Source: an uncultured SAR86 cluster bacterium
Lineage (GTDB): Bacteria; Pseudomonadota; Gammaproteobacteria; Magnimaribacterales; AG-339-G14
Direction of reading: 5' to 3'
Length of the DNA stretch: 64,000 nt
NCBI GenBank assembly: GCA_902525735.1
Contig: CABZIF010000001.1
Coordinates: 130,813 to 194,812, forward strand
The notes beneath the pieces were generated by a model that ran no database searches, had not been told where the DNA came from, and worked only from the letters and a program-made list of their open reading frames with translations. Numbering within the stretch: position 1 is the stretch's first letter; each line of letters starts with the position of its first letter. Of the stretch, positions 32,106 to 38,654 are shown one piece after another. Both the position numbers and the translations under genes were made by a program.

Positions 32106-32804
32106 ATGAGTAAAGAACACATTCTATTGGTGGAAGACGAACCTGATTTGCTTCAAACCCTTTCCTTTAATTTTGAAAGCGAAGGTTATAAAGTTTCAAA
32201 AGCATTGAATGGCGAAGAGGCCATGAAGTTGCTTGAGAAAAATGATTCCATAGCTATGGTTATTCTTGATCTTATGCTGCCCGGTATCAGCGGTTTAGAT
32301 ATTTGTCGACACATTAGAAATACAGACGACCTAAAAAACCTCTTGGTCATTATGGTCACTGCCAAAGGAGAGGAAGTAGATAGAGTGGTAGGTTTTGAAG
32401 TAGGGGCAGACGATTACGTTGTTAAGCCTTATAGTGTTAGAGAGTTATTGCTTCGAGTTGGTGGCATGCTTAAAAGATCCTCGAAAGAAAAAGACGAAAT
32501 CGATAAAGAAGTGATTGTTTTTGAAGATTTAAAAATAGATACTAATAAGCATAAAGTCTATATATCAGATAAAAAACTATCTTTAACCTCAAAAGAGTTC
32601 AAACTTCTCAAACATCTCTTATCCAAAGCTGACAAAGTTCAAACTAGAGATAATCTACTAAATAAAGTATGGGGCTATGACCAGGATGTCACAACCAGAA
32701 CCGTCGATACGCATATTAAAAGATTGAGATCAAAAATTGGAAAATACGGTGAGAAAATAGAAACAGTCAGAGGAGAAGGGTATATCTTTAATAAATTAGA
32801 TTAG
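32106..32804 (+). CDS. phoB: Phosphate regulon response regulator PhoB
   Basis: OmpR-family response regulator: receiver domain with acidic pocket (E10, D11), phospho-acceptor D55 in VILDLMLPG, KP motif in VVKPYS, and C-terminal winged helix with TTRTVDTHIKRLRSKIG. The 232-residue length fits PhoB (229 in E. coli). Assignment as PhoB rather than a paralogue rests on the abutting phoR kinase, the neighbouring ppx, ppk2 and pit genes, and Pho-box-like repeats ahead of the porin and pit. I see no convincing Pho box in its own 87-base upstream region. Confidence 0.93.
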   Translation: MSKEHILLVEDEPDLLQTLSFNFESEGYKVSKALNGEEAMKLLEKNDSIAMVILDLMLPGISGLDICRHIRNTDDLKNLLVIMVTAKGEEVDRVVGFEVGADDYVVKPYSVRELLLRVGGMLKRSSKEKDEIDKEVIVFEDLKIDTNKHKVYISDKKLSLTSKEFKLLKHLLSKADKVQTRDNLLNKVWGYDQDVTTRTVDTHIKRLRSKIGKYGEKIETVRGEGYIFNKLD

Positions 32805-34157
32805 ATGAATTTTTCTGTAAAAATAAAACTTTTTTTGTTGGTCTTAACAATTGTTTCTTCCGCTACTTTGGTTGGATATGTCATTTACAGAGGAAATGTT
32901 TTCTTAAGTGGAAATTTAATATTAGGATTCTATTTATTAATTCTTACTACTGTTGTTGCAACCTATTTCATTTATCAATATTTTAAAAGATTAGTAAATT
33001 CAGCAGCTCAGCTTATTGCCAAAAATAATATAGATGATCCTTCAGTTGCTTCTGAAGAAATTTTTGATGAACTTTTAAGAGAATCCAGTCAGGTTGAAGA
33101 TGAGTTAGTCTATTACACTAAACAAACAGAACAATTTAGCTCTGTGTTATCAAAAATGGGACAGGGAGTGATTTTGGTTGACAAAAATTATCAAGTTTTG
33201 TATCTGAATAAAACTATCAATGCAGAATTTTTCCCGGATTTAAATATTGGCGATAAGCTTTTTGAAAATATTAGTTACCCTCAATTTAAAAAATTTCTAG
33301 AAAAAGCCTGGAATAAAAAAGACTTAGTTAGAGAGATTTCAGGTCCCATATCTATAAAGACTGTTTATTTGGTAAGTGCTAAAAAAGACGATATCAGAGA
33401 TGAGATGTTGATTGTTTTTAGTGATATATCTAAATCAAAGAATTTTGAAAAAATGAGAGAAGACTTTATTGGTAATGTCTCTCACGAACTGAGAACTCCC
33501 ATTAGTGTTATTAAAGCCAATGCAGAAACTTTAATTGAAAATAAACTAATTAAAGATGACGAAAATGCAAAGTTGTTTACGGAAGCAATATTTTCTCAAT
33601 CTGAACGCATGGCAGTCATAGTCAATGATTTGCTTAAAATTTCAAGCATGGAAGCAGGGGAATACCCGATCTCAATTGAGTCTATCAATTTATTTTCGAT
33701 TGCTAAAAATTTAATCGAAGAATTCAAACCTAACTTGGATAAGAAAAAATTAACCGTGCAAAACAATTTGAATGAAAATACCAAAGTAATGGCTGACAAA
33801 GCTGCTCTGAAACTTATCCTGACAAATTTTTTAAGCAATGCCATCAAACACTCACCCAAAAAAGCTCTTATAAATCTAGCAGAATCTTCATCTTCAAAGG
33901 GCTTCGTTAGGCTGTCTGTTTCAGATGAAGGCAAAGGGGTGCCGAAAAAATACAAAGAAAGAGTTTTTGAAAGGTTTTACAGAATAGATAAAGGCCGTTC
34001 TTCGGAAACTGGTGGAACAGGTCTGGGTTTATCAATTAGTAAAAATTTAGCGTTGATGATGGGCTATTCTGTTGGAGTTGAAGCGAATGAGCCAAAGGGC
34101 GCTACTTTTTTTATCGATATAAAAGTCGATGAGGAAAAATCAATTCAAGCCGCTTGA
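32805..34157 (+). CDS. phoR: Phosphate regulon sensor histidine kinase PhoR
   Basis: The 450-residue kinase has two N-terminal membrane helices (about 7-28 and 38-58), a PAS-like region (about 112-210), HisKA with the phospho-acceptor H227 in NVSHELRTPISVI, and an HATPase domain with FLSNAIKHSP, SDEGKGVP and GGTGLGLSI. Like PhoR it lacks a large periplasmic sensor domain. It starts with no gap after phoB. Its end overlaps the convergent ppx by 13 bases inside a 17-base palindrome. No pst or phoU genes are present in the window. Confidence 0.93.
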   Translation: MNFSVKIKLFLLVLTIVSSATLVGYVIYRGNVFLSGNLILGFYLLILTTVVATYFIYQYFKRLVNSAAQLIAKNNIDDPSVASEEIFDELLRESSQVEDELVYYTKQTEQFSSVLSKMGQGVILVDKNYQVLYLNKTINAEFFPDLNIGDKLFENISYPQFKKFLEKAWNKKDLVREISGPISIKTVYLVSAKKDDIRDEMLIVFSDISKSKNFEKMREDFIGNVSHELRTPISVIKANAETLIENKLIKDDENAKLFTEAIFSQSERMAVIVNDLLKISSMEAGEYPISIESINLFSIAKNLIEEFKPNLDKKKLTVQNNLNENTKVMADKAALKLILTNFLSNAIKHSPKKALINLAESSSSKGFVRLSVSDEGKGVPKKYKERVFERFYRIDKGRSSETGGTGLGLSISKNLALMMGYSVGVEANEPKGATFFIDIKVDEEKSIQAA

Positions 34158-35858: not shown

Positions 35859-35910
35859 ATTTTTTTTGCGAAGATGTATTCTAGCTAAGTTTTCTAAGAA
35901 GAATTACTTT

Positions 35911-35939
35911 TTCACTTAATTGTCACATATTTTTCGCTT
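35911..35939 (+). promoter_or_regulatory. Candidate PhoB box upstream of the porin
   Basis: Three 7-mers at an exact 11-base pitch: TTCACTT (35911), GTCACAT (35922), TTCGCTT (35933), with AT-rich 4-base linkers. This is the architecture of the E. coli Pho box (repeats of CTGTCAT spaced by 11). The reading direction matches the porin on the plus strand; it lies 76 bases before the porin ATG and could also affect ppk2. Confidence 0.65.
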
Positions 35940-36015
35940 ATCTTTTCTATTTCGCAATCAAATCTCAATAAAGAGAAAATAAAATCATCAGGTATTTTAA
36001 AATTTGAGGAGAAAT

Positions 36016-37002
36016 ATGAAAAAATTAAATTTTTTGTTACTAACGATTTCAGTTTCTTTGCTTTCTACCAATTCATTTGGTGCACCCAAAGTTTATGGAA
36101 AAATAAACATTGCAGCTGATGATGGTAATGGAACTGACGATTATGTTAACAACGCTTCTAGATTAGGAGTAAAAGGTACTATGGATCTTAACAACGGATT
36201 GACTGGAATATATCAGGTCGAATACGAAATAGACCCTACCGATGGCAAAGCGCAAGATGAACAAACAGTTACATTAGGAACTGGTGAGACTGTTGTCACA
36301 AAATCTGCCATGATCGCAAAACAAAGAAATACCTTTGTTGGTCTTAAGGGTGATTGGGGAACAGTTAAGTTGGGATTTCACGATACTTATTTAAAACTGG
36401 CTCAAGGCAAAGTCGATTTATTTAATGACCTAAGAGGTGACATTAAAACTACTTTCAGTGGAGAAGATAGAACGTCAGATTTTCTAGGTTACGAATCTCC
36501 GATCTTTGGTGGCGGCTTTCAATTTAAATATAATTTAAGTGATGGTGGATCTGCAGCTAATGGCGGTACAGGAAATAGGGATGCTACTGCTTATGCAATT
36601 TCTTATAAAACCAAAAAAATCTATGCTGCTTACGCTTCTGAAGACAACAGTACAAAGTCAAGTGGAGAGGATCACACAAGAATTGTGATACAAGTTCCAA
36701 TTGGACCGGTTAAAATTGGATTTATTGATCAAGAATCTGAAATAGGTTCCTCAAAAGATGATTCAACCATGTTTAACATTGCTTGGAAAGCAACTGACAA
36801 ATTAACTGTTAAATTCCAAACTATGGATAAGGAAGATGAAAATGGTATTACTCAAGACGATGTAACTTCATTTGGAATAGATTATAAACTCGCAAAAAAA
36901 GTTAAATTATTCTTTTACGATACTGAGCATGAGGATGGCGTAATCTCTATTTCAAATCAGCCTAAGGATTACACTGGAATAGGAATAGAAGTAAATTTTT
37001 AA
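36016..37002 (+). CDS. Outer-membrane porin (Gram-negative porin family), probably phosphate-regulated
   Basis: A 328-residue beta-barrel porin. It has a Sec signal peptide (hydrophobic 5-19, cleavage near SFG-APK), then the first strand VYGKINIAAD typical of trimeric general porins. It also shows SRLGVKGTMDLNNGLTGIYQVEYE, FVGLKGDWGTVKLGFHD, and a C-terminal YTGIGIEVNF ending in Phe, as required for BAM recognition. AGGAG (36007-36011) fixes the ATG at 36016 rather than an upstream TTG. The Pho-like box upstream and the ppk2 and pit neighbours suggest induction by phosphate starvation. Selectivity cannot be told from sequence. Confidence 0.88.
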   Translation: MKKLNFLLLTISVSLLSTNSFGAPKVYGKINIAADDGNGTDDYVNNASRLGVKGTMDLNNGLTGIYQVEYEIDPTDGKAQDEQTVTLGTGETVVTKSAMIAKQRNTFVGLKGDWGTVKLGFHDTYLKLAQGKVDLFNDLRGDIKTTFSGEDRTSDFLGYESPIFGGGFQFKYNLSDGGSAANGGTGNRDATAYAISYKTKKIYAAYASEDNSTKSSGEDHTRIVIQVPIGPVKIGFIDQESEIGSSKDDSTMFNIAWKATDKLTVKFQTMDKEDENGITQDDVTSFGIDYKLAKKVKLFFYDTEHEDGVISISNQPKDYTGIGIEVNF

Positions 37003-37020
37003 TTATTTAAATTTAAAAGT

Positions 37021-37050
37021 TTTTAAAAAAAACTAGTTTTTTTTTAAAAA
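37021..37050. terminator. A/T-only terminator-like palindrome after the porin
   Basis: TTTT, A8, CTAG, T9, A5 makes a long near-perfect A:T hairpin with a T-run, 19 bases after the porin stop. The lack of a G:C stem makes termination strength uncertain. Confidence 0.4.
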
Positions 37051-37062
37051 TTAGTCTATTGT

Positions 37063-37091
37063 GTCTTTTGTGTGACAAAAAAGTGTCACAT
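37063..37091 (+). promoter_or_regulatory. Candidate PhoB box / inverted repeat upstream of a 41-residue peptide gene
   Basis: 7-mers GTCTTTT (37063), GACAAAA (37074) and GTCACAT (37085) are at an 11-base pitch; the last is identical to the middle unit of the porin box. The same stretch contains a perfect inverted repeat TGTGACA-N6-TGTCACA (37071-37090), so another dimeric regulator is possible. It ends 15 bases before the ATG at 37107. Confidence 0.45.
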
Positions 37092-37106
37092 AAGTTACTA
37101 ATAAAT

Positions 37107-37232
37107 ATGAATACTAAAACAGTTCTTAAAGACCAAGGATTAATGCCTGCAAACTCTCAAGCACAAGAGATGATGATAGTAGGTTTTATTTCTTTATGGG
37201 TAGTTTTGGCAGCAGTTCTTTATTTTTCATAA
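37107..37232 (+). CDS. Hypothetical 41-residue membrane peptide in the phosphate island
   Basis: ATG at 37107 opens a 41-codon frame: a soluble polar head (NTKTVLKDQGLMPANSQAQE) and one hydrophobic helix (about 22-40, IVGFISLWVVLAAVLYF). It fills most of the otherwise empty 401 bases between the porin and pit. The repeat-rich site just upstream suggests its own promoter. I do not recognise the family. A small membrane partner of the PiT transporter or of PhoR is one possible role. No strong ribosome-binding site is visible, which is common in this window. Confidence 0.55.
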   Translation: MNTKTVLKDQGLMPANSQAQEMMIVGFISLWVVLAAVLYFS

Positions 37233-37301
37233 ACATCTCTGTTAAAAACACCTTATCTCATAATTCATCCTAAACTAGCAAGGAAATGAATTTCTTACTA
37301 T

Positions 37302-37341
37302 TTCACCTAAATTTCACTTAAATATCTAAATTTAGTCACAC
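37302..37341 (+). promoter_or_regulatory. Candidate PhoB box upstream of pit
   Basis: Four 7-mers at an 11-base pitch: TTCACCT (37302), TTCACTT (37313), ATCTAAA (37324, weak) and GTCACAC (37335). TTCACTT is identical to the first unit of the porin box. The site ends 62 bases before the pit ATG. The remainder of 37233-37403 shows no gene. Confidence 0.65.
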
Positions 37342-37403
37342 TACAGCAATAGTTTCTCAACAATCTTGTAGTTTAATAATTATTGAATTTAGAGAGTTTA
37401 AAT

Positions 37404-38654
37404 ATGGGAACTTTATTTTTGGATCCTTTCAATATACTTTTGCTTGCAGGATTTATTGGTTTTTTTATGGCTTTTGGCATTGGTGCTAACGATGTTGCAA
37501 ACTCCATGGGGACTTCAGTAGGAAGCAAAGCTCTAACTATTAAACAGGCAATTATAATTGCTGCTATTTTTGAATTTTTAGGAGCCTTTTTAGCAGGTGG
37601 TGAAGTAACTTCTACAATTAGAAAGGGCATCGTAGATCCAAATCTCTATGCAAATGATGTAAATATATTTGTGATCGGAATGATATCTGCTCTTTTAGCG
37701 GGAGGCGCTTGGTTGTTTATCGCAAGTATAAGAGGCTGGCCTGTTTCTACTACTCACTCAATAGTGGGAGCTATTATTGGTTTCGTACTAATTTCTAAGG
37801 GAGTAGATGCTGTATCTTGGGGCAAGGTCGGTAATATAGCAATGAGTTGGGTAACTTCCCCTTTATTTTCTGGAACTTTAGCCTTTGGACTTTATATATC
37901 TGCAAAAAAATTAATTTTAGATAGAGCCAATCCTGGAAAAGCAGCTATCACTTTTATTCCATTATATAGTTTTCTAGTAGCAGTCGTTATTTCACTCGTC
38001 ACAGCAAGGAAAGGTCTTAAACATGTAGGAATAGAATTTTCAGAAAATGAAATTTATTTATTTACTTTAATTTTTAGCATTATTGTTGCAACTGGAACAG
38101 CATTTTTTTTAAGAAGGAATAAAGATCAAATAATGAGAGAAGGCGGCATTGAATTTGCATTTGGATTGCTAATGATAGTTTCTGCTAGCGCCATGGCTTT
38201 TGCCCATGGTTCAAATGATGTTGCAAATGCAATTGGACCTTTGGCAGCAGTTGTAAGTGTTGTGGATACTGGCGAAATAGGATCTAAATCTTCAATCAGC
38301 CCATGGGTGTTACTTGTTGGAGGTATTGGTATAGTTTTTGGTCTAGCAACTCTGGGTTCCAGGGTCATCTCAACAGTTGGAAAAAAAATTACAGCTTTAA
38401 CTCCTAGTCTTGGCTTCTCCGCGGAAATGGCCACAGCGTCTACTGTTGTTGCTGCAACTTATCTTGGTTTTCCTATTTCAACTACACATACACTAGTTGG
38501 TGGAGTTATAGGTGTTGGTCTAGCTAAAGGCGCAGAACACTTAGATTATGCTTCCATAAGGAGAATAATTGCTTCATGGTTAGTAACTATTCCAGCTGGA
38601 GCAGCTTTTACAATTTTATTCTATATTTTATTAAGAATAATTTTTAGTGTTTAA
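37404..38654 (+). CDS. pit: Inorganic phosphate transporter, PiT family
   Basis: Cation-coupled phosphate permease of the inner membrane. The 416-residue protein has two inverted halves, each with the family signature: FGIGANDVANSMGTSVGSKA (about 17-36) and FAHGSNDVANAIGPLAA (about 265-281), plus the repeated P(V/I)STTH motif in WPVSTTHS and FPISTTHTLVGG. About ten hydrophobic segments are present. I choose ATG 37404 with AGAGAG upstream over a TTG at 37383. No PhoU-like pit accessory gene adjoins; the neighbour is the 41-residue peptide. A Pho-like box suggests starvation control, unlike the mostly constitutive PitA of E. coli. Confidence 0.93.
   Translation: MGTLFLDPFNILLLAGFIGFFMAFGIGANDVANSMGTSVGSKALTIKQAIIIAAIFEFLGAFLAGGEVTSTIRKGIVDPNLYANDVNIFVIGMISALLAGGAWLFIASIRGWPVSTTHSIVGAIIGFVLISKGVDAVSWGKVGNIAMSWVTSPLFSGTLAFGLYISAKKLILDRANPGKAAITFIPLYSFLVAVVISLVTARKGLKHVGIEFSENEIYLFTLIFSIIVATGTAFFLRRNKDQIMREGGIEFAFGLLMIVSASAMAFAHGSNDVANAIGPLAAVVSVVDTGEIGSKSSISPWVLLVGGIGIVFGLATLGSRVISTVGKKITALTPSLGFSAEMATASTVVAATYLGFPISTTHTLVGGVIGVGLAKGAEHLDYASIRRIIASWLVTIPAGAAFTILFYILLRIIFSV

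Follow-up and report, generated by a model that had tools for sequence, protein, structure and literature searches.

In the window, by which we mean the whole stretch of 64,000 nucleotides of SAR86 DNA analysed here, a gene for a 41-residue peptide lies between the genes of a porin and of the phosphate transporter Pit. The features at and near this locus, all on the + strand, are as follows.

32106–34157, + strand: response regulator and histidine kinase of the PhoB-PhoR type (PF00072, PF00486, PF00512, PF02518), the candidate regulator of the boxes below.
35910–35943, + strand: Pho-type box of the porin gene, direct repeats at 11 bp (TTTCACTTAATTGTCACATATTTTTCGC...).
36016–37002, + strand: porin (PF13609), a variable neighbour, located upstream here and, among relatives, either 3′ of pit or at another place.
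37034–37062, + strand: −35-like TAGTTT (37034–37039), a 17-bp spacer and −10-like TATTGT (37057–37062), from pattern and conservation.
37061–37098, + strand: PhoB-like operator of four half-sites in 11-bp phase (GTGTC at 37061, GTGAC at 37072, GTGTC at 37083, GTTAC at 37094), conserved in 28 loci.
37107–37232, + strand: gene of the 41-residue, single-pass membrane microprotein, with ATG start and the stop included, from conservation, constant length and pN/pS.
37173–37226, + strand: hydrophobic C-terminal helix of the peptide (codons 23–40), from AlphaFold2 and hydropathy.
37301–37339, + strand: Pho-type box of pit, with TTTCACCTAAATTTCAC at 37301–37317 and AGTCAC at 37334–37339.
37404–38654, + strand: pit, PHO4-family phosphate transporter (PF01384, 5e-111), the constant partner of the peptide gene.

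The product of the open reading frame (ORF) at 37107–37232 is MNTKTVLKDQGLMPANSQAQEMMIVGFISLWVVLAAVLYFS. Its position between a porin and a phosphate transporter, as given in the original prediction, was borne out by the PF13609 and PF01384 matches on its two sides, and the neighbourhood as a whole (phoBR-ppx-ppk2-porin-pit) is indeed one of phosphate genes. Homologues, all of 41 residues, were found in 37 of the 203 genomes of the SAR86 order, and of the 40 genomes in the window's family, 17 had already yielded one in an earlier search. When named genomes were scanned with Pit as the query, 56 loci were obtained, and a 41-residue ORF occupied the same place in 31 of these besides the window. 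Identity among these ORFs falls to 44% with the length unchanged, and the residues K4, L7, L12, P14, M22, G26 and L34 are kept. The frame was checked for disruption in relatives, and the length proved constant in all 32 loci.

A comparison of synonymous and non-synonymous change gave a pN/pS of 0.34 for 25 distinct sequences, against a column-shuffled null that averages 0.89 and never falls below 0.62, and the differences per codon position were 0.31, 0.12 and 0.52 for positions 1, 2 and 3. The codon bias that a gene calls for is thus present. Since pN/pS was 0.27 over codons 2–12, the ATG at 37107 is supported as the start; a longer ORF from an upstream TTG (37059) was rejected, the extension being interrupted in the genomes G007, G008 and G014. 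The results showed that the ORF is a genuine gene under purifying selection. It could be argued that the ORF arose by chance and that the DNA element in front of it is alone functional, as the upstream block is more conserved than the ORF at the DNA level, but this is contradicted by the codon-position pattern, the pN/pS and the constant length, and we regard its probability as negligible.

The AlphaFold2 model of the peptide (pLDDT 83.7) consists of a short helix at residues 3–9 and a long helix at residues 16–40, with pLDDT values of 93–95 for residues 21–40. Model and hydropathy agree on one hydrophobic helix of the kind found in single-pass proteins (about 18–25 residues), and the single membrane helix noticed earlier is thereby supported. 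The peptide is probably an inner-membrane protein, with the N-terminus predicted by charge to be inside and the C-terminus out. A Pfam scan of the peptide at E≤1 returned DUF2615 below threshold and nothing else, searches against NCBIfam and PHROGs gave chance-level matches only, and the same was true of a PDB sequence search for relatives of solved structure. The remark that no family comes to mind was therefore correct. No convincing homologues were found elsewhere in the class, and a virus-borne copy was rejected, as there was none in viral contigs. As judged by its sequence, the peptide is a new, unnamed microprotein family outside every family tested, and the genetic support for it is strong.

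The presence of the peptide follows the type of Pit. A Pit at least 86% identical to that of the window occurs in 35 of the 203 order genomes, and all 35 have the peptide (17/17 within the window's family); these counts are not independent, as the genomes are incomplete and the peptide-linked Pits share one ancestor. Wherever the upstream DNA of such a Pit is covered, the peptide gene lies 155–190 bp upstream of it. In the two peptide genomes without such a Pit, the peptide genes stop 59 and 2 bases short of the contig end. Neither a peptide homologue nor a distant small ORF was found before Pits of 47–73% identity, for which the upstream DNA of 16 such Pits from the genome set and of the SAR86 62% and Thioglobus-type loci was inspected, with the positive control recovered. 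Divergent Pits (47–73%), one of them in the same family (g4), operate without the peptide, which counts against a modulator of Pit. One genome that belongs to g17 by its PPK2 (G100) has a Pit of 68% and no peptide, and the cell AG-917-I09 (L124, 4001–4171) has a pit truncated after codon 57 and lacks the peptide gene together with its promoter. The size and hydrophobicity of the peptide would suit the toxin of a type I toxin-antitoxin system; the strict pairing with Pit, the conserved polar N-terminus, the lack of an Rfam match to an antitoxin RNA and the single match per genome in the 203-genome scan make such a toxin highly improbable.

A tree of pit places all peptide-linked Pits in a single clade (100/99) within the Pits of family f3, whereas the same peptide genomes fall into two families (100/100) in the PPK2 tree. 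The Pit of the window is 87–88% identical to those of SAR86E-type genomes, as compared with 51–53% for PPK2 and 31–34% for Ppx. Because of these identities and the disagreement between the trees, the simplest reading is that peptide and pit were transferred horizontally as one unit.

Within the window's family, the locus occupies a fixed site, with phoBR-ppx-ppk2 on one side, pulO-gspC-gspD on the other and a variable part between them. The variable part is porin-peptide-pit in the window, G003 and G021; porin-aquaporin-phosphatase (ArsC-like)-pstSCAB without the peptide in G017 and G033; and a divergent Pit of 50% without the peptide in G013. Mosaic variants have peptide-pit after aquaporin-ArsC (G023, G026) or after an insert of 12 kb that includes genes for TonB receptors and a phytase (G008, G002). 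PstS passed the Pfam cut-off in 9 of the 40 family genomes and in none of the 17 with the peptide. The pstSCAB genes (L065, 4454–9089, in G033; L062, 6127–10763, in G017) and peptide-pit (36016–38654 in the window, with the porin) use the same site and never occur together in the 40 genomes. The site is an exchangeable phosphate-uptake locus, and the mosaic loci suggest repeated recombination there.

Some details of these loci were noted in passing. In the mosaics L063, L064, L060 and L061, there are aquaporin and ArsC-like phosphatase genes, as well as apparent remnants of porin and aquaporin genes, beside pst or peptide-pit. The insert in L060 (3193–14047), which separates ppk2 from peptide-pit, encodes TonB-dependent receptors, an aquaporin, an ArsC-like phosphatase and a phytase (PF02333). 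No phoU follows pstSCAB in L065 (8244–9089).

The gene order in SAR86E-type genomes is ppx-ppk2-SnoaL-TetR(divergent)-peptide-pit-porin-phytase. Across these genomes and the window's family, the placement of the porin is variable and that of the peptide beside pit is constant. The peptide might nevertheless be an independent small envelope protein that travels with pit through linkage, as linkage alone can make adjacent genes come and go together; in addition, the peptide gene has its own promoter region, and 155–190 bp of diverged DNA precede pit. On the other hand, the adjacency has survived in two families and through several rearrangements that altered other neighbours, the peptide is found without this Pit only at contig ends, and the only cell in which Pit is truncated no longer has it. 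We consider an independent protein unlikely, though by no means far-fetched. The action on Pit that had been proposed thus gains a genetic link stronger than the sequence alone could have told its reader.

Upstream of the peptide gene, GTGTC-N6-GTGAC-N6-GTGTC is found at 37061–37087. This is the single exact match in the 1.18-Mb genome, and only 0.17 matches are expected in the window even with 3 mismatches allowed. The 11-base phased repeat that had been noticed here is kept in every homologue: over 28 distinct loci the half-sites, 11 bp apart, are GTGTC (28/28), GTGAC (26/28, with GTGTC in 2), RTGTC (28/28) and GWWAC (28/28). Between groups, the 42-bp operator block is 74–81% identical, as against 42–60% for the 55 bp upstream of it and 45–54% for the spacer between peptide and pit. 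The perfect inverted repeat TGTGACA-N6-TGTCACA is exact in the window (37071–37090), but it is conserved in only 5 of the 28 loci, so that it was rejected as a functional element and is regarded as incidental. An RNA hairpin was rejected likewise; RNAalifold finds a stem (−6.3), but there are no pairs with both sides changed, and 15 of 27 break the outer pair. An operator of the divergent TetR of SAR86E-type genomes was rejected as well, since conservation of the motif is just as high in the window's family, for which a search (run without a positive control) did not find that TetR. Several g3 genomes (L077–L081) have a second GTGAC-N6-GTGAC pair, a reverse-oriented Pho-like box, some 95 bp 5′ of the peptide gene, and in L099 TGTCA occurs three times with 11-bp spacing.

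The accepted form of a PHO box is a tandem of 11-nt direct repeats (PMC4415409). The E. coli Pho-box CTGTCAT-N4-CTGTCAT has no match at the site upstream of the peptide within 3 mismatches. TKTCAC-N5-TKTCAC has two exact matches in the window against 0.00 expected, one in front of the porin gene and the other in front of pit, and three in the whole genome; the peptide block fits the local TKTCAC pattern with one mismatch on the − strand. In G005, pstS is preceded by CTGTAACAATGTCGTAAC, with TATAAT following 10 bp on. The putative Pho box of the peptide thus holds as a set of PhoB-like phased repeats, and PhoB is the likely ligand of the block, as far as the repeats and the nearby boxes indicate.

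A TA(T/A)TGT hexamer overlaps the first half-site in 28 of 28 loci, and in nearly all of these a hexamer of the T(A/T)G type precedes it at a spacing of 17 bp (TTGATA in two loci with replaced upstream DNA). A scan with a generic consensus promoter did not flag the −35/−10-like pair, and these candidate promoter elements, identified by pattern and conservation only, are weak. If the hexamers are the −10 and −35, transcription would begin within the repeats, and a regulator bound there would act as a repressor. A layout for activation, with the box standing in for the −35, a −10 some 10 bp downstream and a start ahead of the ORF, would lead from half-sites 1–2 to a poor −10, or from half-sites 2–3 to a start inside the ORF. 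Both activation and repression are possible for PhoB-type regulators (PMC4415409). Repression of the peptide gene by the bound regulator would be at least as likely as induction by starvation, which is a slight lean and not a result. Induction by phosphate starvation, as implied earlier, is not supported in that form, because, with the conserved −35/−10-like elements, the probable start is covered by the repeats.

The short ORF with its hydrophobic C-terminus directly 5′ of pit might also be a regulatory leader, the translation or nascent-chain stalling of which sets the expression of pit. However, the region between peptide and pit is diverged and without a consensus RNA structure, the Pho-type box of pit itself lies in between, no Rfam match was obtained, and conservation extends across the whole peptide. 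A leader function is accordingly very unlikely.

We propose, with somewhat better than even confidence, that the microprotein, probably N-in/C-out and inherited as a unit with one clade of SAR86 Pits, binds and modulates that Pit. Such a Pit-bound modulator is suggested by the strict pairing, the conserved cytoplasmic stretch and the helix. The contact surface would consist of the helix and the short conserved cytoplasmic N-terminus (K4, L7, K8, L12, P14, E21-M22). The peptide promoter carries its own 11-bp-phased operator of the PhoB type, and clean Pho-type boxes precede pit and the porin gene. The peptide could then be a brake on Pit that is produced while phosphate is sufficient and switched off by PhoB~P under starvation; we lean slightly towards a brake, which would fit the promoter layout a little better than a starvation-induced helper.

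The Pit modulator would functionally resemble MgtS of E. coli (31 residues), a very small inner-membrane protein acting on PitA (review PMC10710835), without being related to it in sequence. The peptide, too, is very small and probably an inner-membrane protein, and it is tied to a Pit by genetic pairing. There is no detectable similarity between the two (hhalign 1.8%), and MgtS is a protein of Mg2+ homeostasis with a gene that is not beside pitA in E. coli, whereas the peptide gene always precedes pit and has a PhoB-like operator. YoaI of E. coli (34 residues) is a small membrane protein under PhoR-PhoB control (PMC11853020), and the peptide may be tied to Pho control in a similar manner through its PhoB-like operator. 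It differs from the peptide in sequence (hhalign 0.9%), in being a reported activator of EnvZ-OmpR and in not being linked to pit. DUF1127 proteins, among them YjiS of E. coli and examples from Agrobacterium, are small, often below 50 residues, and affect phosphate uptake via PhoR (PMC12501420); the peptide had no DUF1127 match in the Pfam scan. A microprotein acting on Pit or PhoR would consequently not be new in kind, as had been thought, since MgtS-PitA and DUF1127-PhoR are precedents, and the PhoB-controlled YoaI-EnvZ pair is another.

These precedents bear on the possibility that the peptide acts on PhoR and not on Pit, and that, where Pst is missing, it feeds into PhoR-PhoB from the membrane. 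The phoBR genes are at the same locus, PstS is absent at the Pfam cut-off from all 17 peptide genomes of the family, DUF1127 proteins bind PhoR in Agrobacterium and E. coli (PMC12501420), and YoaI, itself controlled by PhoB, activates EnvZ. The peptide follows the type of Pit, however, and the ppk2-ppx-pit neighbourhood is retained in SAR86 with other Pits and no peptide, which makes an action on PhoR distinctly unlikely.

DUF47/PhoU_div (PF01865) is likewise encoded directly upstream of pit (Thioglobus-type loci L106 and L112), but it has about 225 residues, is unrelated to the peptide and is absent from 40 of the 40 genomes of the window's family; this absence would, speculatively, leave room for a substitute. 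A bolder version of the Pit modulator, unlikely in our judgement, is that in SAR86 without Pst the microprotein serves Pit as a dedicated regulatory subunit, which informs PhoR of the transport status or gates Pit through reciprocal control by PhoB. It would then be a minimal stand-in for Pst-PhoU or DUF47 on a transferable peptide-pit cassette.

SAR86 is an abundant and largely uncultured ocean lineage, and in its peptide-bearing genomes Pit takes the position that Pst has in relatives, while PstS was not detected. If the proposal is true, a Pit-locked microprotein with a PhoB-like operator would offer a handle on the control of phosphate entry without Pst in streamlined cells, and the short list of small proteins linked to Pit transporters would grow by a family unrelated to MgtS. 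In HIMB59, the phosphate genomic island is also an exchangeable set of phosphate-acquisition genes at a fixed site in streamlined marine bacteria (PMC10734472); every version there retains pst, whereas in SAR86 pst and peptide-pit replace each other. The exchange of peptide-pit and pst at one site can be used as a metagenome marker of phosphate strategy. In the SAR86E-type locus L093 (5255–7269), the porin gene and a beta-propeller phytase gene lie directly 3′ of pit, apparently as one operon.
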